Source: a virus
DNA length: 25,891 nt
IMG/VR virus record: IMGVR_UViG_3300044729_003961
Location: 1 to 25,891 of that record
Reading direction: 5' to 3' (one strand)
Both the position numbers and the translations under genes were made by a program. Each line of letters begins with the position of its first letter. Positions within the stretch are counted from its first letter, which is position 1. The notes beneath the pieces are model-generated. The model was not told the origin of the DNA, searched no databases, and was given only the letters and a program-made list of their open reading frames with translations. Positions 1 through 25,126 of the stretch are shown here, in pieces.

Positions 1-96
1 TTATCGGGTGAAAGGTTCAACAATCTCGAACAGCTAAAACAGATCAAAAGAGTTGATTGGAATGCCGTGTTTGCGGCGGACCTTATTAGGGTCTGA
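1..96 (+). CDS. C-terminal end of an unknown virion-region gene (partial)
   Basis: The reading frame is open from the left edge and ends at TGA 94-96, giving the last 31 residues, which finish in DWNAVFAADLIRV. The start lies outside the window and no family can be named from this fragment. A strong hairpin with a T-run follows 20 bases later. The last nine residues, VFAADLIRV, recur exactly in a second copy at 622-651, beyond the HNH gene that lies between them, but with mostly different codons. The location upstream of muralytic and virion genes suggests a structural gene. This is inference from context only. Confidence 0.75.
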   Translation, partial: LSGERFNNLEQLKQIKRVDWNAVFAADLIRV

Positions 97-116
97 GGTT
101 AATCTTGCACTTCAAT

Positions 117-143
117 AAAGAGGGATTTCAATCCCTCTTTTTT
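117..143. terminator. Bidirectional intrinsic terminator
   Basis: A perfect 11-bp inverted repeat (AAAGAGGGATT / AATCCCTCTTT) is followed by six Ts on the plus strand. On the minus strand it is followed by TTTATT. It sits between two converging genes: the gene ending at 96 and the HNH gene whose stop codon lies inside the hairpin at 128-130. It can end transcripts from both. Confidence 0.85.
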
Positions 144-571
144 ATTAACTCTTCAAATAGCTTGGGATTGCGAGTTTTTATGTGGTGACAAGTGCCGCAT
201 AAAACTTGACATTTTTTGATTTCTTTTTCAAGACGTCTTCTGCTCATTGTGCCTCCTCTTCCTACATTAAACTTTTTGTCATAAAGATGGTCGAAATCAA
301 GACCTTCCGGATGAGTGTTGTAGCCGCAACAAGCGCAACCCGCAGTTGTTTTTAGGTCATTCATCCATTGTTTGTTTTCTTTCGAGATGCGCGTACAACG
401 TTTTTTATCATATGCTTTTTTCTTCGCAAGTTGATTAGGGCTGGTCCAAACTTCAAGAAAAGTGCCGTCTTGTTTAATTTTTTTGCGGTTATAACCAATA
501 AACATGAAACCATCGTCCCTAGGGTCTCCATATTTAAAAGGTTCCCCTGTGCAAGGATTGATCCTTTCCAT
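128..571 (-). CDS. HNH homing-type endonuclease
   Basis: A 147-residue protein with a zinc-binding HNH core in its C-terminal half. It has a Cys cluster CACC at residues 79-82, the catalytic-type DFDH at 92-95, and CQVLCGTCHH at 121-130, which supplies the second Cys pair and the final His. The N-terminal part (about 1-75) is rich in Lys and Arg and probably contacts DNA. HNH proteins of this kind cut or nick double-stranded DNA at long sites and spread their own gene. The gene points against its neighbours and fills nearly all of the space between two copies of the 3' end of the upstream gene (46-96 and 610-651). That marks it as a mobile insertion. There is too little non-coding sequence around it for a self-splicing intron core. 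Target specificity is unknown. Confidence 0.85.
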   Translation of the reverse strand: MERINPCTGEPFKYGDPRDDGFMFIGYNRKKIKQDGTFLEVWTSPNQLAKKKAYDKKRCTRISKENKQWMNDLKTTAGCACCGYNTHPEGLDFDHLYDKKFNVGRGGTMSRRRLEKEIKKCQVLCGTCHHIKTRNPKLFEELIKKRD

Positions 572-609
572 GTTTGTCTTCTAAAGATAAAACTATAGCA
601 GATCAATCG

Positions 610-651
610 TTTTATTGCGGCGTCTTTGCCGCTGACTTAATCCGTGTATAA
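610..651 (+). pseudogene. Displaced second copy of the 3' end of the upstream gene
   Basis: Read in frame, this segment encodes FYCGVFAADLIRV followed by TAA. The last nine residues are identical to the end of the gene at 1-96, but seven of nine codons and the stop codon differ. The frame is open only from about 598 and has no start, so it is not an independent gene. It sits directly before its own terminator (673-697), as a native gene end would. I infer it is the original 3' end, cut off from its gene when the HNH module arrived. It could instead be the relic of a tandem paralogue. Confidence 0.7.
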
Positions 652-672
652 CTAACTCCTTCTGTAGATACG

Positions 673-697
673 CCCCTGGGAAACCGGGGGTTTTTAT
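673..697 (+). terminator. Intrinsic terminator after the displaced gene end
   Basis: A GC-rich hairpin CCCCTGG-GAAA-CCGGGGG with a tetraloop is followed by TTTTTATTTT. It lies 21 bases after the stop codon of the displaced gene end and about 30 bases before the next start codon. Confidence 0.8.
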
Positions 698-728
698 TTT
701 AGAATGAAGGATAAAAGATCATCGTGAT

Positions 729-1394
729 ATGGCTGGTATTACGTTTAAAGGACGTGTTGGCTCTACTGGCAGATCAACTGGGCCGCATTTGCACGTTGAA
801 GTACAAGATCTTGCAACGGGCGCTTTCTTAAATCCTGAAACAATTCGCACTCCTTTGAGTGGATTACGAATTGGTGAGAAGAGAATTCCAGCATTAATCC
901 AAACGCCAGAAGGAAAATTTACATTTAATCCTGAGGCCGGCATTACCATTACGTCTAAATACGGTCCCCGTGGAGGAAGGCAACACAAAGGTGAGGACTG
1001 GGCTTTACCAGAGGGTACTCCAATCTTTTATGAAGGTGCCGGTAAATACGTTCCGTTAGCTAATCAAGGAGCTTACGGAAACCTTTCTACGTTCACTACG
1101 GGAGACAACAAATATCAAATTCGCTTAGGGCACATGCAATCCCTGGGAGAGGCGGCAGATCTTTCTCAAGGTGCATCCACTGCTAACACCAGCGCATCAA
1201 ATCCTTCTGATTTCCAAGGGATGCTATCTGGTTATCTCCTCGGTTCTTTACTGAGAGGTGAACCAAAAGAAGATCCAAAAACACAAATGATGCGCGGGTT
1301 TGTTAAAGAGCTAGTACAACCGCAACAAAATGATATGGCTGGTGCTTTGTTCCAGCAGTTGTTGTCATCTTCTACAGGTGGACTGTTTGGTTAA
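729..1394 (+). CDS. Virion-associated M23-type peptidase with motifs in permuted order
   Basis: A 221-residue protein carrying all hallmark residues of M23 (LytM-type) zinc endopeptidases, which cleave peptidoglycan cross-bridges. The order is unusual. The HLH motif within GRSTGPHLHVEV (His20, His22) comes first, then the HxxxD zinc motif (His86, Asp90), then the GHM active-site motif (His135). In ordinary M23 domains HLH comes last. An in-frame stop at 705-707 with no intervening ATG argues against a longer N-terminus carrying a missing half. Residues about 165-221 form a separate tail that resembles the tail of the GH104 muramidase at 3566. The role is probably local cell-wall digestion during DNA entry. 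The Shine-Dalgarno match (AGG at 708-710) is distant, so the start is not well supported. Confidence 0.7.
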   Translation: MAGITFKGRVGSTGRSTGPHLHVEVQDLATGAFLNPETIRTPLSGLRIGEKRIPALIQTPEGKFTFNPEAGITITSKYGPRGGRQHKGEDWALPEGTPIFYEGAGKYVPLANQGAYGNLSTFTTGDNKYQIRLGHMQSLGEAADLSQGASTANTSASNPSDFQGMLSGYLLGSLLRGEPKEDPKTQMMRGFVKELVQPQQNDMAGALFQQLLSSSTGGLFG

Positions 1395-1405
1395 TTCAGT
1401 TCATC

Positions 1406-1411
1406 TATAAT
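1406..1411 (+). promoter_or_regulatory. Candidate phage promoter -10 box (TATAAT)
   Basis: TATAAT lies 23 bases before the GTG start of the next gene. A near-identical context (TATAAT then a short A-rich run ending in ACA) occurs at 4288 and 15248, also before non-ATG starts. No convincing -35 box is visible, as would suit a phage-modified polymerase. This is inferred from sequence similarity only. Confidence 0.45.
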
Positions 1412-1433
1412 TGAGAACATACGGAAGTAAGCT

Positions 1434-1895
1434 GTGCAGCTCAGCGATTTTGACAAGAGTAGAGTCCGGTATCATCTGGGCTACTTCACGGTTTCCGTGC
1501 CGGCGGGTGACTTTGCCCGTTTAGAAGAAGCTATGAACACCGTTCCGGATTCATACTTCTACGACAAAATCGTTATTCAGATTGGTCGTTGTGATACGGC
1601 CGAAAAGAAAACAGAAGTTGCAACATCGCCTTCCACTCGGTTAGAAAGCATCGTTGGTGATGTGGACCGTACGATTCGGTCTAGTAATGCCAAAGAAGCT
1701 CTCAAGGTTTGGGATGAGATTTATCTCTACGAGACCAACCGTTTAGCCGGTATCCTTTACGTACCTAACTACAAGGATCCGTTCCAAGCTCGTTACCGTT
1801 ACGAGCGTTCAGGCGCTGAGTTTATTCAAAGCCTCCCAGGCCCTGCAGATGTTTCGGTTGGCACCAGGCTTTACCTCAACATTAATTGGCGCTAG
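1434..1895 (+). CDS. Unknown virion or assembly protein
   Basis: A 153-residue protein starting at GTG 1434 with GGAAG eight bases upstream. It has no membrane segment. The N-terminal part (LGYFTVSVPAGDFARLEEAM) looks like mixed alpha/beta sequence, and the middle contains a Tyr- and Arg-rich stretch ending in DPFQARYRYERSG. I do not recognise the family. Its position between muralytic and structural genes suggests a connector, completion or assembly protein. Its last 18 residues (GPADVSVGTRLYLNINWR) are matched by a second, diverged copy at 2445-2507 beyond the neighbouring HNH gene. The present 3' end is therefore probably an acquired replacement. Confidence 0.7.
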   Translation: MQLSDFDKSRVRYHLGYFTVSVPAGDFARLEEAMNTVPDSYFYDKIVIQIGRCDTAEKKTEVATSPSTRLESIVGDVDRTIRSSNAKEALKVWDEIYLYETNRLAGILYVPNYKDPFQARYRYERSGAEFIQSLPGPADVSVGTRLYLNINWR

Positions 1896-1920
1896 CATAG
1901 CACTTTCTTGTGCTGACGAG

Positions 1921-2433
1921 ATGCCTCGCCCTTGGGAGCCTCTGCCTTCTTTTCAAGAACTCAACACATTTTATTCCTACGAACCTGATACAGGACAAGT
2001 TTACTTGAAAAAGAAACGATGCAATTCTGATGCTAAGCGCGTTGGTAAGCCAGTAGGCAATTTAAGAAGGCGTGGAAAACGCTTAGTATGGACTTTAACT
2101 CATAAAGGAGCAAATCTTTATCTCAGTAGAGTCATCTGGGTTTTAATGACAAAGACAGACCCTGGTCCCATGCACGTTGAACACAAGAATAGAGATTCGA
2201 CCGACAACAGTTGGGTTAATTTACGACTTGCAACTCCTGCTCAAAATGGTTGGAATCAAGTTTCTCTTGGGTTTAGCAAGAGAGCTGATTCGGGCAAGTA
2301 CAGAGCAAGGATTACCGTCGAGAATAAACGTATTAACCTTGGTTGCTTTGACACACAAGAAGAAGCAAAAAATGCTGTGAATGAGGCTCGCAAGAAGTAC
2401 CACCAAGAGTATGCGTGCCTTGAGTTAGAATAG
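1921..2433 (+). CDS. HNH endonuclease with C-terminal AP2 DNA-binding domain
   Basis: A 170-residue protein from ATG 1921. Residues 16-75 resemble the N-terminal part of HNH_3 proteins. The nuclease core follows, with HVEHKNRD at 85-92 and WVNLRLATPAQN at 98-109. Residues 113-164 form an AP2-type module (SGKYRARI, then LGCFDTQEEA). HNH-AP2 proteins are free-standing mobile nucleases common in phages. The frame stays open upstream to an ATG at 1849, but that lies inside the preceding gene and encodes nothing family-like, so 1921 is preferred. The gene starts 25 bases after the stop of the gene at 1434, and a second copy of that gene's end begins 11 bases after its own stop. That arrangement points to a compact insertion. 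Confidence 0.85.
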   Translation: MPRPWEPLPSFQELNTFYSYEPDTGQVYLKKKRCNSDAKRVGKPVGNLRRRGKRLVWTLTHKGANLYLSRVIWVLMTKTDPGPMHVEHKNRDSTDNSWVNLRLATPAQNGWNQVSLGFSKRADSGKYRARITVENKRINLGCFDTQEEAKNAVNEARKKYHQEYACLELE

Positions 2434-2444
2434 CTTTAGCAGTT

Positions 2445-2507
2445 ATGAAAAGCCCGGCTGATACGGCTGTGGGTTCTCGCATCTATTTACATGAGGTTTG
2501 GAGGTAA
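2445..2507 (+). pseudogene. Displaced second copy of the 3' end of the gene at 1434
   Basis: In frame this encodes MKSPADTAVGSRIYLHEVWR and then TAA. It aligns with the end of the 1434 gene (GPADVSVGTRLYLNINWR), sharing PAD, VG, R, YL and WR. Codons differ almost throughout. Its final codons TGG AGG TAA include the GGAGG Shine-Dalgarno site of the next gene (start 2510), so this copy is integrated with the downstream gene, as an original gene end would be. The copy at 1840-1895 has no such site. I infer that this one is ancestral and was cut off by the HNH insertion. Confidence 0.7.
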
Positions 2508-2509
2508 CT

Positions 2510-3352
2510 ATGAATCGTAAACCAACTACGAGCGCTGCTGCACAGCAACGTGCAAGGGAGCAACAAGCAGTTCTCGACAGGCTTCGTTCTGGTGGGGCAA
2601 TTACGGGTGCTAAGCCTGCTAACCCTTTTATTGGCGGAATACAATCCCTTTTTGGCGGTGCAGGTGCAGGAACCATTCCTGCACTCAATGCAGCACAGCT
2701 TGGAGGACAAGAGGTTTTAATGAATAGAGGCGGCTGGAGCACTAATGTCGCTGGTAGCGGTCCGATTAATGTAGGCGGACAAACTTGGTATCCAGCTCAA
2801 AGCGGAAGGGATTTAGTCTATAAACGTGCTTCTGGTAACGTTGGCGGTCAATACGGAAGTGTTTTTTCAAAAGATCAGTTTGCAGTTCCGCCTGCACCAG
2901 TGTTACCTGGAGCCGAAGAACGCGCATATCAGCAAGAAAAATCCCGCGTTGCTCAGTTAACTGCTCAAGATCCAGAGCTTCAACGCTATGAGGCTGCTCG
3001 TCTAAAAGCCGTAGCACCTGGCGCAACAGCAGAACAAGTGCAATCTGCAGAAGATATTGGTATGCAGATGTGGGCAAAAGCAAATCCAACTCTTGCTGCC
3101 AAAGTTAAGCCCGGTCAATCCGGTTACGATGCCATTCAAGGATCCATGGCAGGGCAAGCTGCTTCTCAGGGATTTGGCTATCAGTTGCCTCAGCAGATGA
3201 TCTTCACGCCTCCTCCTGGCGTCAATACGCCCCAAGGTTTACCTGCTGTGGAATCCATTGGACCTTCCGCTACCTATGGCGCTCAAGGCATTGATATTGA
3301 TCCCGAGATGCAGAAGAAGTTCCAAGCTTTACTTAATCAAGCAAAGTCTTGA
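2510..3352 (+). CDS. Ala/Gln/Gly-rich unknown virion protein
   Basis: A 280-residue protein. ATG 2510 is preferred because GGAGG at 2500-2504 stands five bases upstream. The N-terminus is an Ala/Gln/Arg-rich helix, followed by a glycine-rich low-complexity part (about 30-110). A helical stretch from about residue 130 to 165 contains RVAQLTAQDPELQRYE and looks able to form a coiled coil. The C-terminal third is rich in Pro, Gly and Gln. There is no signal peptide or enzyme motif. Its place in a virion and muralytic gene run suggests an internal or tail-associated structural protein. The family is not recognised. Confidence 0.7.
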   Translation: MNRKPTTSAAAQQRAREQQAVLDRLRSGGAITGAKPANPFIGGIQSLFGGAGAGTIPALNAAQLGGQEVLMNRGGWSTNVAGSGPINVGGQTWYPAQSGRDLVYKRASGNVGGQYGSVFSKDQFAVPPAPVLPGAEERAYQQEKSRVAQLTAQDPELQRYEAARLKAVAPGATAEQVQSAEDIGMQMWAKANPTLAAKVKPGQSGYDAIQGSMAGQAASQGFGYQLPQQMIFTPPPGVNTPQGLPAVESIGPSATYGAQGIDIDPEMQKKFQALLNQAKS

Positions 3353-3565: not shown

Positions 3566-4273
3566 ATGACAGAGCGCGAACTACTACAGAGTTACGTATC
3601 AAAACCAGCTATTCAGAATGCATTGCGTGTTATACGTTTTGCGGAAGGTACTGAACGTGGCGGTCCTGACTCGTACCGCGTGATGTTTGGTGGCGGTCTT
3701 GCACCCGACTTAAAACGCCATCCAGATAAAGTCATTAAAGGCGGTAAATACGCAAGCGCTGCAGCAGGCGCTTATCAGTTCATGCCGCCTACTTGGGAAG
3801 CTCAGGCAAAAGCTTTAGGACTGACTGATTTTGGCCAACAAAGTCAAGATCTTGCGGCAGTGCGGCTCATGCGTAATCGCTTGATGCCGATTGGTGGTTT
3901 ATCCGTTTTAGAAAAAGAAGGCTTTAGTCCTCGTGTTTCTGCTGCCCTGGCACCAGAATGGGCTTCTCTGCCAACAGAAAAAGGTGTAAGTTACTACGGA
4001 CAGCCGGTTAAGAAACTTTCTGATCTTCAAAAAGTTTATAGCCAGCCTTCTAATGACCAAGCACAAACAACAACTACGGGGCAAGAGACATCTTCTACCG
4101 GTTTCCTCCAAGGGTTTTTATCGGCAATGTCCGGCAGTAATACCAAGGAAGTGTCCATGAAAGATCTCTTGGCACAGGAAGTGAAAGGCGAATTTATGAA
4201 GCAACTACTTGCCCCTCAGACCATGGCAGGTCCCCTTGATTTTCTGTCAAGCTACCTTAATCCGTACGCTTGA
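3566..4273 (+). CDS. GH104 (lambda R-type) lytic transglycosylase, virion-associated
   Basis: A 235-residue protein. Residues 15-155 match the lambda endolysin (gpR) family. It has the catalytic glutamate in RFAEGTERGG (Glu27), then YRVMFGG, HPDKV, AAGAYQFMPPTW (66-77), QSQDLAAVRL and EWASLP. These enzymes cleave the glycan strand of peptidoglycan to give 1,6-anhydro-muramic ends. Lambda gpR is about 158 residues long. Here an extra tail of about 75 residues follows a Thr/Gln linker (about 160-178) and resembles the tail of the M23-type protein at 729. No signal peptide is present. With two other lysis enzymes further on, I infer this one is packaged in the virion for entry. AGG at 3555-3557 precedes ATG 3566. 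Confidence 0.85.
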   Translation: MTERELLQSYVSKPAIQNALRVIRFAEGTERGGPDSYRVMFGGGLAPDLKRHPDKVIKGGKYASAAAGAYQFMPPTWEAQAKALGLTDFGQQSQDLAAVRLMRNRLMPIGGLSVLEKEGFSPRVSAALAPEWASLPTEKGVSYYGQPVKKLSDLQKVYSQPSNDQAQTTTTGQETSSTGFLQGFLSAMSGSNTKEVSMKDLLAQEVKGEFMKQLLAPQTMAGPLDFLSSYLNPYA

Positions 4274-7046: not shown

Positions 7047-7412
7047 TTGAAGAGCATGTTTTGCAGCCAGCACGAGCCTCTCGCCCTGCTAGTTGAAATA
7101 ACTCCAAAACTTGCCAAGAAACGTTTCAGAGAAAGTATATATCAAGCCTGGGACTACAAATGCGGTTATTGCGGCAAGGACGCCACAAGTCTTGACCATG
7201 TGATCCCACGGTTTAAATCAGGGTGTTCTAATCGACACAACTTGATCCCAGCTTGTTGCCGTTGCAATGCAAACAAAGCTTCGTCACACATGGAAACCTG
7301 GTACAAACAACAAGAGTTTTTTGAACAAGCTAGGTTGGATGCAATAAAAGCCTGGGTGCAACCAGGGAATGTAAACTTAATTGATATGCAAGAATATAAA
7401 GCGGCATCATGA
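7047..7412 (+). CDS. HNH endonuclease (McrA-like zinc finger type)
   Basis: A 121-residue protein with a textbook HNH core: CGYCG (Cys39, Cys42), SLDHVIPRFKSG (Asp50, His51), NRHNLIPAC (Asn65) and CRCNANK (Cys71, Cys73). The start is TTG 7047, with ATG 7056 as the alternative. The stop codon overlaps the next start in an ATGA junction at 7409-7412, so translation of the 745-residue downstream protein is probably coupled to this gene. Unlike the HNH genes at 128 and 1921, no duplicated neighbouring gene end is visible. It may be an older, settled homing gene, or a nuclease with a role in packaging or virion biology. Confidence 0.8.
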   Translation: MKSMFCSQHEPLALLVEITPKLAKKRFRESIYQAWDYKCGYCGKDATSLDHVIPRFKSGCSNRHNLIPACCRCNANKASSHMETWYKQQEFFEQARLDAIKAWVQPGNVNLIDMQEYKAAS

Positions 7413-20338: not shown

Positions 20339-20379
20339 AAAACACCTAAGTTGTAAAATAAGAAAAAATATCATTGATC

Positions 20380-20703
20380 ATGGCTAATACTATTTGGGAT
20401 ATTGTCAACCTTGAACGTCATCTTCCTGATGGTGACACATGCCCTGATGGCGTTGTATACACCGTCCATTGGACTGCATCCTTGGAAGAAGACGGTGAAA
20501 CTGCCGGTTGTTATGGCAGTGTTGGTCTTGGTGAGCCTGACCCTAATAATTTCACTCCTTTCAGTGAACTCACCAAAGAAGAAGTGGTGAACTGGACCCT
20601 GGCAGCACTTGGTGTTGATCAAGTTGTTTCAATTGAAGAAGCACTGCACAATCAAATTCAAGCCAAACTGCACCCAACTTCTTCTGCTGGTGTCCCCTGG
20701 TGA
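20380..20703 (+). CDS. Small conserved cyanophage-type protein, paralogue A
   Basis: A 107-residue protein from ATG 20380. It has WDIVNLERHLPDG, VVYTVHWTASLEEDG, YGSVGLGEPDP and FTPFSELTKEEVVNWTLAALGVDQV, and ends LHPTSSAGVPW. I recall the HW(T)-strand, YGSVGL and final G(V)PW layout in many cyanophage small proteins of unknown function. It is clearly homologous to the gene at 20924, which shares NLER.LPD, HW.A, W.P or F.P, ALG.D and LHPT...G.PW. Beta-rich N-terminus and helical C-terminus suggest a small virion or assembly factor. The function is unknown. Confidence 0.7.
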   Translation: MANTIWDIVNLERHLPDGDTCPDGVVYTVHWTASLEEDGETAGCYGSVGLGEPDPNNFTPFSELTKEEVVNWTLAALGVDQVVSIEEALHNQIQAKLHPTSSAGVPW

Positions 20704-20923: not shown

Positions 20924-21307
20924 ATGACAATAACAAAGTGGGGGATTAAAAATCTAGAAAGGAAGCTACCCGATAGCTTGTCTTACCCTGGTGGAGAAGT
21001 CACGGCTATTCATTGGATTGCTTACCAAGTAGAAGGTAAACACACCGTTAGTGAATCTGGTGTTGTTGAGCTTTCTCCTGCCAAGCCAGAATCTTGGGTT
21101 CCTTATCAGCACATTGACAAGGAAACAGCAAAGGGTTGGTGCCAAGATGCTCTTGGTTCAGATGTTGTTAAAAACATTGAAGCTGAGTTGACGTCTCAAA
21201 TGCAAGAGCTTTTACACCCTACGCGAGAGCTTGGTCTCCCCTGGAAAGTACCCGATCCTCTTCCTCCACTTCCTTATAGCCTTGGTTATGTGACACCAAG
21301 CAAGTAA
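20924..21307 (+). CDS. Small conserved cyanophage-type protein, paralogue B
   Basis: A 127-residue protein homologous to the gene at 20380. Corresponding segments are WGIKNLERKLPDS, VTAIHWIAYQVEG, GVVELSPAKP, WVPYQHIDKETAKGW, DALGSDVVKNIEAEL and LHPTRELGLPW. It differs in carrying an extra Pro-rich tail (VPDPLPPLPYSLGYVTPSK). The YGS motif of paralogue A is replaced here, so the two have diverged considerably. The arrangement A, 60-residue gene, B suggests an old tandem duplication or repeated capture. It precedes the endolysin gene in the same direction. Confidence 0.68.
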   Translation: MTITKWGIKNLERKLPDSLSYPGGEVTAIHWIAYQVEGKHTVSESGVVELSPAKPESWVPYQHIDKETAKGWCQDALGSDVVKNIEAELTSQMQELLHPTRELGLPWKVPDPLPPLPYSLGYVTPSK

Positions 21308-22974: not shown

Positions 22975-23888
22975 GGCCTGTTCGTTAGAGGAACAAAGAG
23001 TTCAGGGAAGCGCTCAGTGTCTTGATGCTCCCTCTCCCATGCATTCTGCCATTCCGACAAGGAGTGATCGTGTATTGTGTCGTAATACGCATCATCGCCT
23101 ACCTCAAGAATAATTTTATAATCATCGAATGTATCACTTGGGATGCGTTCACCGATATACCATGTTGAACCGGCTGATACGGTAACGGTCACACCAGAGT
23201 TAATCGTGCAGCTTGTTTCAGTAAAAGCATTAGCGCCGATAGGAATAAGCGTATTGACGGTTACAGGACTATCAATGTTTGGCGCATCAATTTCGGTTTC
23301 TTGCAAGCAAACGCTGCCATCAAGGTCTTCTAGCTCAAAGAAGGCTTCATCCGTTGGAAACTCAATGACAACACCAAGCTCATACGCAAGTGGTTCATTG
23401 CGTGTTGATGAGACACAGATGAGATAACTACCGGTTTCCAGGGGGTAGTAGCGATCATCACCACGATCAAGCCGTAAACGATCAAACGTGTTGTAAAGAT
23501 CAGATTGAACACTCATCACCGTATCTAAATACGGGATATACATTGTTCCATTGGTTTGCGTTGTAACAGAATCCGCGCCAAAAATAGGATCCCCCTGGAT
23601 CGGAGTCTTATTGAGATCGTATGCGGAAACTTGAATGTACTTAGGGCGCGGCGGCCCTTTTGTCAAGATAATCCAAGCAGGCTCCGTCAAATTAACTTGG
23701 AACCAATGGTTGTAAGTACCGCCGCCAATGCCGCCGTTAGAAATTTGCCGGGTATCAGCACGTCCAATAGGCTTGTATTGAGCGCCAAGCGTCCCCTTCA
23801 AATAGCGCAGCGTAGTCTGGCTAAACGTACCGAGTAGTAATGGGTCGTTTTGGGTGCGTTGCGACTGACTAAGTGCACTCCTCGACAT
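22971..23888 (-). CDS. Unknown beta-rich virion-type protein
   Basis: A 305-residue protein from ATG 23888 (an alternative ATG at 23921 would overlap the previous gene further). The sequence is beta-rich: HWFQVNLTEPAWIILTKGPPRPKYIQV, GSYLICVSSTRNEPLAYELGVVIEFP, then TETSCTINSGVTVTVSAGSTWYIGER. The C-terminus is charged and ends with EREHQDTERFPELFVPLTNRP. No enzyme motif, signal or membrane span is seen. Gly/Pro/Thr composition suggests a virion surface or tail protein. It lies inside a minus-strand unit with small proteins and nuclease-like genes, which is unusual for a structural gene here. Confidence 0.65.
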   Translation of the reverse strand: MSRSALSQSQRTQNDPLLLGTFSQTTLRYLKGTLGAQYKPIGRADTRQISNGGIGGGTYNHWFQVNLTEPAWIILTKGPPRPKYIQVSAYDLNKTPIQGDPIFGADSVTTQTNGTMYIPYLDTVMSVQSDLYNTFDRLRLDRGDDRYYPLETGSYLICVSSTRNEPLAYELGVVIEFPTDEAFFELEDLDGSVCLQETEIDAPNIDSPVTVNTLIPIGANAFTETSCTINSGVTVTVSAGSTWYIGERIPSDTFDDYKIILEVGDDAYYDTIHDHSLSEWQNAWEREHQDTERFPELFVPLTNRP

Positions 23889-24585
23889 ATGGTTCGTAAC
23901 ACATGGCCTTATCTTCATCATAATCCGGGGTATTTTTGTTTACCAACGGATGTTGAATTGTGCTTTTGTATTGTTTTTCTATGATCTGCTCTGGTTTCTC
24001 ACGCATTTGATTCCGTGCTGCGTACATTAGTTTTTCAGGGTTGAACTCATAATCAAACGGATGAATGACCTCCGGTGGGAACGTGCGGTTCCAACTTGAG
24101 ACCATATGGAGAGGGTTGAGACACGCCTTGTTTTTGCACAGACGAGTCACAAACATCTTGCCGACATCCCCCCAGGTGCATTGGTAAATCACCTTGTGGG
24201 CTGAGATGTTATCCGAAAGACGTTTGTCACCCACAGAACGGTACGAAGGGAACCGAATGCGAGCGTTAACAAGAGACGGAGCTTCCCAACAGTCTTCAAA
24301 GTGCCCAACCGAGATCTGCTTCCAGATCATCAGAAGACGTGTCTTGTACGCTGCATGGACGTAATTCAAGTCAAAAGCACAGTTGTTGCTTTGGATCTTG
24401 CGCACGCAGTCATAGCACCAATGCTGGCTGGTATCGCGTATTCGATGGCCATAGACACATGGAAAACCCACGTAATAGCCATGTGCTTCTAGTTGTTGAG
24501 GAGAGAGGCTTTCAATGTTGGGTACATGGCGAAAACCAGAGCGTGATTTAGCAATGTCCAACATGCGATTCAAGTTGTTAGCCAT
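23869..24585 (-). CDS. HNH-type zinc-binding endonuclease-like protein
   Basis: A 238-residue protein from ATG 24585, two bases after the previous stop. Residues 42-62 form a candidate zinc site (PCVYGHRIR, then WCYDC). Residues about 111-162 match the zinc-binding-loop form of HNH homing nucleases: RFPSYRSVGDKRLSDNISAHKVIYQCTWG followed by CKNKACLNPLHM, with His130, Cys150, Cys155 and His160. I recall comparable proteins in many cyanophages. A mobile nuclease is one reading. A settled phage function is another, since no duplicated gene end flanks it. Its end overlaps the gene at 22971 by 20 bases. Confidence 0.65.
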   Translation of the reverse strand: MANNLNRMLDIAKSRSGFRHVPNIESLSPQQLEAHGYYVGFPCVYGHRIRDTSQHWCYDCVRKIQSNNCAFDLNYVHAAYKTRLLMIWKQISVGHFEDCWEAPSLVNARIRFPSYRSVGDKRLSDNISAHKVIYQCTWGDVGKMFVTRLCKNKACLNPLHMVSSWNRTFPPEVIHPFDYEFNPEKLMYAARNQMREKPEQIIEKQYKSTIQHPLVNKNTPDYDEDKAMCYEPYVEECT

Positions 24586-24586
24586 G

Positions 24587-25027
24587 TCATTCCTCGATTT
24601 TGATGCCTTGTTCACGTTCGAGTTGGTGAACTGAAATACCGTCTCGAGCTTGATCGTTATAAACAAGTTGCCCTTCTGCGTTCCGTGTGCGTCTCCGCCA
24701 CTTGGGTGTCGGTTTGGGCTTGCGTTGGAACAAGGTCAATTCAAGGCGGTTGTCACGAGTGGGGTTGTCGGCGCCGTGCATCACGTCAGCAGTGCCAGGG
24801 TCTTCACCTGTGCGTAGGTAGTAGACGATCCGATGCGCTGTGTAGCGGGTGCCCGCCAGGAAGACGTAGTAGTAACGCCCATCTGACCGTTGGGTACCTG
24901 CCATCTCTCCGGGCTTGTGGTAGCGCCCCTCTGAGCGCCACACCAAACCTGACGGGTAGTCGTCTGAGAGTTCCACCTGTTCTTGCAGCCACCAGAGCGG
25001 CAGCATCTCTTGGTAAGTACGGGCCAT
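24587..25027 (-). CDS. HNH_3-like endonuclease
   Basis: A 146-residue protein from ATG 25027. Residues 23-97 follow the HNH_3 pattern: PSGLVWRSEGRY, YYYVFLAGTRYTAHRIVYYLRTGEDP (His65) and DVMHGADNPTRDNRLELTL with His84 and the Asp-Asn-Arg triad at 92-94. The C-terminal third is very basic (QRKPKPTPKWRRRTRNAEG) and may bind DNA. It is the first gene of the minus-strand operon that runs to 22731 and lies next to the inverted-repeat region at 25127-25260. The frame extends to an ATG at 25102, but the added residues (Cys/Leu/Pro-rich) look spurious. Confidence 0.75.
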   Translation of the reverse strand: MARTYQEMLPLWWLQEQVELSDDYPSGLVWRSEGRYHKPGEMAGTQRSDGRYYYVFLAGTRYTAHRIVYYLRTGEDPGTADVMHGADNPTRDNRLELTLFQRKPKPTPKWRRRTRNAEGQLVYNDQARDGISVHQLEREQGIKIEE

Positions 25028-25126
25028 CAATGCCAGGGATGGGGTGTTGACACAGCATAGCAGATGTTGGCACGTAAAACAGGGCGGAAAAAGGACAAAC
25101 ATTGGTGTGGCAAGCGCTCTATTTTT

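Follow-up and report, generated by a model that had tools for sequence, protein, structure and literature searches.

Nuclease genes with replacement target-gene ends in S-EIV1-like phages: candidate homing modules without introns or inteins

Two nuclease sites at the left end of the window

The stretch of DNA analyzed here (the window, 25,891 nt) is IMG/VR record IMGVR_UViG_3300044729_003961, a 25.9-kb fragment of an uncultured virus, in which two genes (target genes 1 and 2) each adjoin an HNH endonuclease gene that is followed by a second, orphaned copy of the target gene's 3′ end. Target gene 2 shows 86% identity to a gene of Synechococcus phage S-EIV1, the sole isolate with a match to it among ~50,700 phage records searched, and the phage group carrying such units is S-EIV1-like, comprising viruses of freshwater cyanobacteria. 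All loci occupied by a nuclease unit are metagenomic (uncultured IMG/VR contigs) and S-EIV1-like; in isolate S-EIV1 itself the sites at terL, target gene 1, and target gene 2 are all empty.

At site 2, target gene 2 (1434-1895, plus strand) matches phrog_29158 (2.4e-78) up to its last residue and ends in PADVSVGTRLYLNINWR before its stop codon. Compared with L016, a locus nearly isogenic with the window and with an empty site, the native body of the gene (1434-1826, plus strand) differs at 7 of 131 codons, all synonymously, and the recoded 3′ end (codons 132-154, 1827-1895, plus strand) at 22 of 23 (Fisher p of the contrast 1e-19). A second near-isogenic relative with an empty site, L009, gives 2 of 128 body and 17 of 23 tail codons; between empty loci that have 10 or fewer body differences (33 pairs), tail differences do not go beyond 13. 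The endonuclease gene that follows (1921-2433, plus strand, its start codon inferred within an open reading frame spanning 1849-2433) matches PF13392 (4.5e-9) and phrog_99 (2.9e-49) and carries an HNH_3 domain followed by an AP2 domain, the latter scoring below Pfam's cut-off, which is the order expected for HNH-AP2 homing endonucleases. Behind this nuclease gene lies the orphan left from the target's native 3′ end (2451-2507, plus strand, profile score 94), which comprises SPADTAVGSRIYLHEVWR and a stop codon and reads PADTAVGSRIYLHEVWR up to its end at 2507. Next comes the gene (2510-3352, plus strand) that in empty relatives stands immediately after target gene 2. The stretch 2476-2814, which runs from the last part of the orphan into the beginning of this next gene, shares 98% identity with L016, in which it lies directly against an unbroken target gene, and the orphan has a 61-nt match (98%) to the gene end of the empty loci L040 and L067.

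At site 1, only the 3′ end of target gene 1 lies in the window (1-96, plus strand), ending in NAVFAADLIRV; in S-EIV1-like phages this gene is the upstream neighbour of the M23 gene. Of its 32 codons present, the first 20 match empty L009 exactly and the final 12 include 11 differences from it, every one synonymous, which places the recoded end at nt 61 to 96 (plus strand). The zinc-type HNH endonuclease gene (128-571, minus strand; phrog_3106, 6.7e-24) has Cys/His residues that are invariant in the family alignment, and beyond it the orphan VFAADLIRV with its stop codon (622-651, plus strand) matches the gene ends at empty sites and the sequence downstream of them. The unit brings its own terminator, a hairpin at 117-140 (plus strand, z -3.05) that is probably bidirectional, since it overlaps the 3′ end of the HNH gene, and the native terminator (672-691, plus strand), which directly follows the gene in empty L009, L015, and L016, remains behind the orphan. 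GC-rich hairpins occur at the same position as the former in L036, L041, and L068 and differ in sequence among relatives.

On the codon comparisons with empty L016 and L009 and the orphan match to L040 and L067, the in-gene ends are judged to be imported and the orphans native at both sites, in line with the initial annotation, which had taken the in-gene 3′ ends to be foreign and recoded. It had also proposed that the two HNH genes, although of different families and in opposite orientations, share one architecture, and this is supported by a flank score, defined as the best same-strand peptide match between the 250-bp flanks of a gene: the zinc-HNH and AP2-HNH genes score 44 and 62, respectively, against a null distribution with a median of 27, a 99% point of 39, and a maximum of 42.

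Recurrence at other loci, targets, and nuclease families

Among the 81 loci of the target-2 set (80 homologous IMG/VR loci and the window), the orphan tail was found in all 12 that carry the AP2-HNH gene (scores 59-94), some of which are near-identical to each other, and in none of the 69 others (no score above 37). At site 1, L036, L038, L041, L054, and L068 likewise combine the zinc-HNH gene with an orphan. A mirrored arrangement, unforeseen in the initial annotation, whose 3′-end unit is otherwise borne out, occurs in L055 (3345-4415) and L041 (7809-8876), where an orphaned 5′ end of target gene 2 and a zinc-HNH gene in reverse orientation precede the full gene, with a recoded 5′ end and a new upstream region. 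Between L055 and L028, 23 of the first 30 codons differ at this site, compared with 8 of the remaining 124.

A wider search with the zinc-HNH alignment extends the pattern to terL, an essential virion gene. Of 30 occupied loci, 26 have a second copy of the last ~20 terL codons behind the zinc-HNH gene, compared with none of 72 empty ones, and L349 and L321 differ at 1 of 125 body codons and 18 of 24 tail codons. In L170 (3939-4490) and ~25 other loci, the terL 3′ end is replaced along with the zinc-HNH gene. The start codon of this gene and the stop codon of terL usually overlap, and the two genes are likely to be translationally coupled. That such nucleases enter essential virion genes, as had been supposed, thus holds for terL in the relatives; for the two targets in the window it is conjectural. 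The start of the orphan is nearly fixed at each site (AVGSR in target gene 2, LVW in terL, AADL in target gene 1), and near-constant right junctions are as expected for a fixed cut site. In cellular genomes, only distant relatives of the zinc-HNH gene were found.

The initial annotation had suggested a survey of flank pairs and would have regarded its proposal as refuted if they were no more frequent around HNH genes than around random accessory genes. Its proposal withstands this test, the pairs being enriched at the nucleases: 33 of 63 zinc-HNH loci have a flank score of at least 45 and 12 of 13 AP2-HNH loci one of at least 57, compared with 4 of 1500 control open reading frames at 45 or above. 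The highest-scoring of these four controls is itself an Endonuclease VII (Endo VII)-type nuclease (PF02945, 1e-22), so that an unselected scan brought to light this architecture in a third family of nucleases. Among its relatives, 24 of 30 distinct loci have a repeated 5′ end of a DUF5872-like gene, whose Pfam match lies below the cut-off. The suggestion that the arrangement recurs as a class is therefore sustained, with unrelated nuclease families and several targets (target genes 1 and 2, terL, and the DUF5872-like gene).

Three further HNH or HNH-like genes of the window were considered as units and rejected. The HNH gene at 7047-7412, used as a negative control, reaches a flank score of at least 38 in 1 of 80 loci, which is within the null range; it is conserved in S-EIV1-like phages, a gene for an HNH nuclease occupies a comparable position in S-EIV1, and the window gene probably serves a core function, with no signs of mobility. 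The genes at 23869-24666 and 24587-25102 have flanks without duplication.

The Endo VII-type units have a further feature, which lies in relatives outside the window and does not apply to the window units. In 32 of 32 distinct loci (L387 at 3601-3760 and 31 further loci among L388-L426), the DUF5872-like frame beside the nuclease is broken by a gap of 20, 21, 24, 25, 26, or 30 nt, lengths that cover all three frames; DUF5872-like genes without a nuclease are continuous in 11 of 11. The gap opens with TAG directly after a TCG codon, closes at TCG (TCT in L415) where the native body resumes, and contains a TAGCC-GNRA-GGCTA hairpin in 31 of the 32 loci. The body after the gap is under purifying selection (pN 0.15, pS 0.82), and none of the usual start codons occurs in its first 20 codons in 13 of 24 loci. 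We lean toward ribosomal bypass of the gap as the likeliest reading of these patterns, internal initiation or a split gene being possible alternatives. A bypassed 50-nt insert adjoining a homing endonuclease is known from T4 gene 60 (PMC5009743), and the Endo VII unit resembles gene 60/MobA in that its nuclease lies 5′ of a gene into which a short, apparently untranslated segment is inserted, with matching codons on either side, a stop immediately after the first of them, and a hairpin. It differs in its nuclease and gene, in length (20-30 nt vs 50), and in that its bypass is putative.

Co-inheritance, proposed mechanism, and rival explanations

Patterns of divergence indicate that the replacement end and the nuclease gene are co-inherited as a unit. 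In all three pairs among the window, L002, and L007, synonymous divergence is lower in the tail plus HNH gene than in the body plus orphan (p = 0.0007, 0.0002, and 0.004), and the same site-2 unit adjoins different downstream genes in four carriers (window, L002, L007, and L008). At terL, the in-gene tail distance tracks the nuclease distance (partial r 0.40, corrected for the body) and the orphan distance does not (partial r -0.05). With chimeric genes, orphans, recurrence, and this co-inheritance all observed, we consider it highly probable that the units are homing modules without intron or intein, in each of which a free-standing nuclease gene is paired with a substitute end for its target.

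As for cleavage, cut site, resistance to recutting, and repair route, we infer the following from the sequences. In a coinfecting phage, the nuclease would cut close to the end of the native gene, and repair off the module-bearing genome would install the recoded end together with the nuclease gene, with the gene body as left homology arm and the leftover native end and the sequence after it as right arm. The recipient protein would stay intact with its new end, recoded enough to resist cutting, and the recipient's old gene end would be displaced behind the nuclease as the orphan, which could then serve as right homology arm at the module's next move. Mirrored units would act likewise at 5′ ends.

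Several observations weigh against the homing-module reading. Four nuclease-bearing terL loci have no orphan, and some empty target-2 genes bear VSVGTR-type ends like those of occupied genes, so that this end is not exclusive to module carriers. The module cases found are confined to S-EIV1-like phages, and no duplicate above the control range was detected in the 16 HNH regions taken from isolates of other kinds (Enterococcus, Klebsiella KP34-like, T5-like, Gordonia, Roseobacter, Vibrio, Raoultella, and other phages). In L013, the AP2-HNH gene (1420-1929) has the conserved VEH changed to VEY; with the catalytic histidine lost in at least this one copy, some module copies are probably dead nucleases, as expected in a homing life cycle.

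The rival that survives best, although we consider it improbable, is ordinary intergenic homing with co-conversion of the flanks, as in T4 SegF and F-CphI, the orphan being an accident of imprecise repair where there is little downstream homology. The process is well known in T4 (PMC2988022) and may be the origin of the first module, and the downstream genes do differ among carriers, so that right-hand homology is short. However, the orphans are near-universal at each site, start at a nearly identical codon, and evolve with the body rather than with the nuclease, and mirrored 5′ forms occur.

Tandem paralogues or partial gene duplications that have nucleases between them by chance are very unlikely. 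Ordinary duplicates with a high flank score do exist, as the window itself illustrates with two tandem paralogous genes without a nuclease (20374-20703 and 20924-21307; MANTIWDIVNLERHLPDG and MTITKWGIKNLERKLPDS). The orphans, however, are short gene ends only and are present in no empty locus, the foreign copies are the in-gene ends and not the orphans, and the control scan set out above (4 of 1500, compared with 33 of 63 and 12 of 13 loci at 45 or above) speaks against a similar frequency of duplicated ends without a nuclease.

HNH genes are often located in group I introns. A group I intron or intein, with the orphan as downstream exon and the in-gene end as intronic mimicry, is nevertheless hardly credible: no group I intron or other RNA family was matched in Rfam at the site even at E 1, target gene 2 is continuous to its own stop with a family match to the last residue, and both site 1 and the 5′ units of target gene 2 have the nuclease on the opposite strand. 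Chimeric metagenome assembly can practically be set aside, since the same architecture and breakpoints occur in independent contigs from many samples, even though every case is an uncultured IMG/VR contig.

The broader proposal, to which we give an even chance, is that splice-free homing modules are a general class in phages, in which at least three nuclease families have evolved such modules at both gene ends, essential genes are kept intact through replacement of the cut end, and the Endo VII family in addition relies on a ribosome-bypassed gap. On the homing-module reading, neither an intron nor an intein is needed for a selfish nuclease to settle in essential coding sequence, and the occurrence of chimeric gene ends and of stray pieces of genes in phage genomes finds an explanation. 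The pairs of empty and occupied loci open cleavage, resistance, and transfer to direct testing.

Comparison with known systems

The initial annotation's view that the arrangement is undescribed has to be limited to phages, because the same organization is known from yeast and fungal mitochondria. WHO elements in the yeast FBA1 gene (Torulaspora and Lachancea; Coughlan 2020, PMC7282813) replace the 3′ end at each integration, the new end conferring resistance. Like the phage modules, they have a nuclease adjacent to the target, a replaced 3′ end, and a native 3′ fragment left behind, so that the unit is a nuclease plus a 3′ end and involves no splicing; the phage loci correspondingly show a complete target whose end next to the nuclease is foreign, and an orphaned native end beyond the nuclease. 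For the FBA1 fragment that is duplicated, Coughlan and colleagues likewise propose the part of homology arm that is suggested here for the orphan (PMC7282813). WHO elements differ in residing in a yeast nuclear genome, with intein-derived zinc-finger nucleases and one main target, whereas the phage modules use HNH and Endo VII nucleases at several targets and both gene ends, and no tandem clusters were seen in the loci examined. Membership of the WHO family by descent was rejected: the phage nucleases are of HNH_3/AP2, zinc HNH, and Endonuclease_7 type rather than intein-like with a zinc finger, and because these families are unrelated, the phage modules would work like WHO elements without being members.

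Mobile open reading frames of fungal mitochondria carry duplicated C-termini (Allomyces atp6; Glomus atp6, atp9, cox2, and nad3; PMC3630166) and share with the phage modules an in-frame foreign C-terminus, an endonuclease reading frame, an orphaned native C-terminus, and mostly synonymous differences. They differ in having LAGLIDADG or GIY-YIG nucleases, in residing in organelle genomes, and in affecting 3′ ends only, as described in PMC3630166. Phages, fungal mitochondria, and yeast thus appear to have arrived at the same solution with nucleases that are unrelated, and the phage modules can be regarded as natural counterparts of home-and-rescue gene drives. In such drives the rescue copy is recoded. 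The likeness is one of analogy only, in that a cassette combines a nuclease against an essential gene with a rescue, the drives being engineered with CRISPR (PMC7968924).

The closest phage systems are the free-standing homing endonucleases (T4 Seg/Mob, F-CphI; PMC2988022), which share intron-free nuclease genes and flank co-conversion with the modules. Those are intergenic or gene-splitting, and a replacement end with an orphan was not found described for them; a classical free-standing intergenic homing endonuclease was rejected for the present loci because the adjoining gene end is replaced and the native end displaced. No phage precedent for end-replacing nuclease modules was found in the open-access full-text literature. 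By analogy with the WHO elements and the fungal mitochondrial reading frames, whose organization it shares, the mechanism is not categorically new; what appears to be new is its abundance in phages, its use by unrelated nucleases, and its operation at both gene ends.

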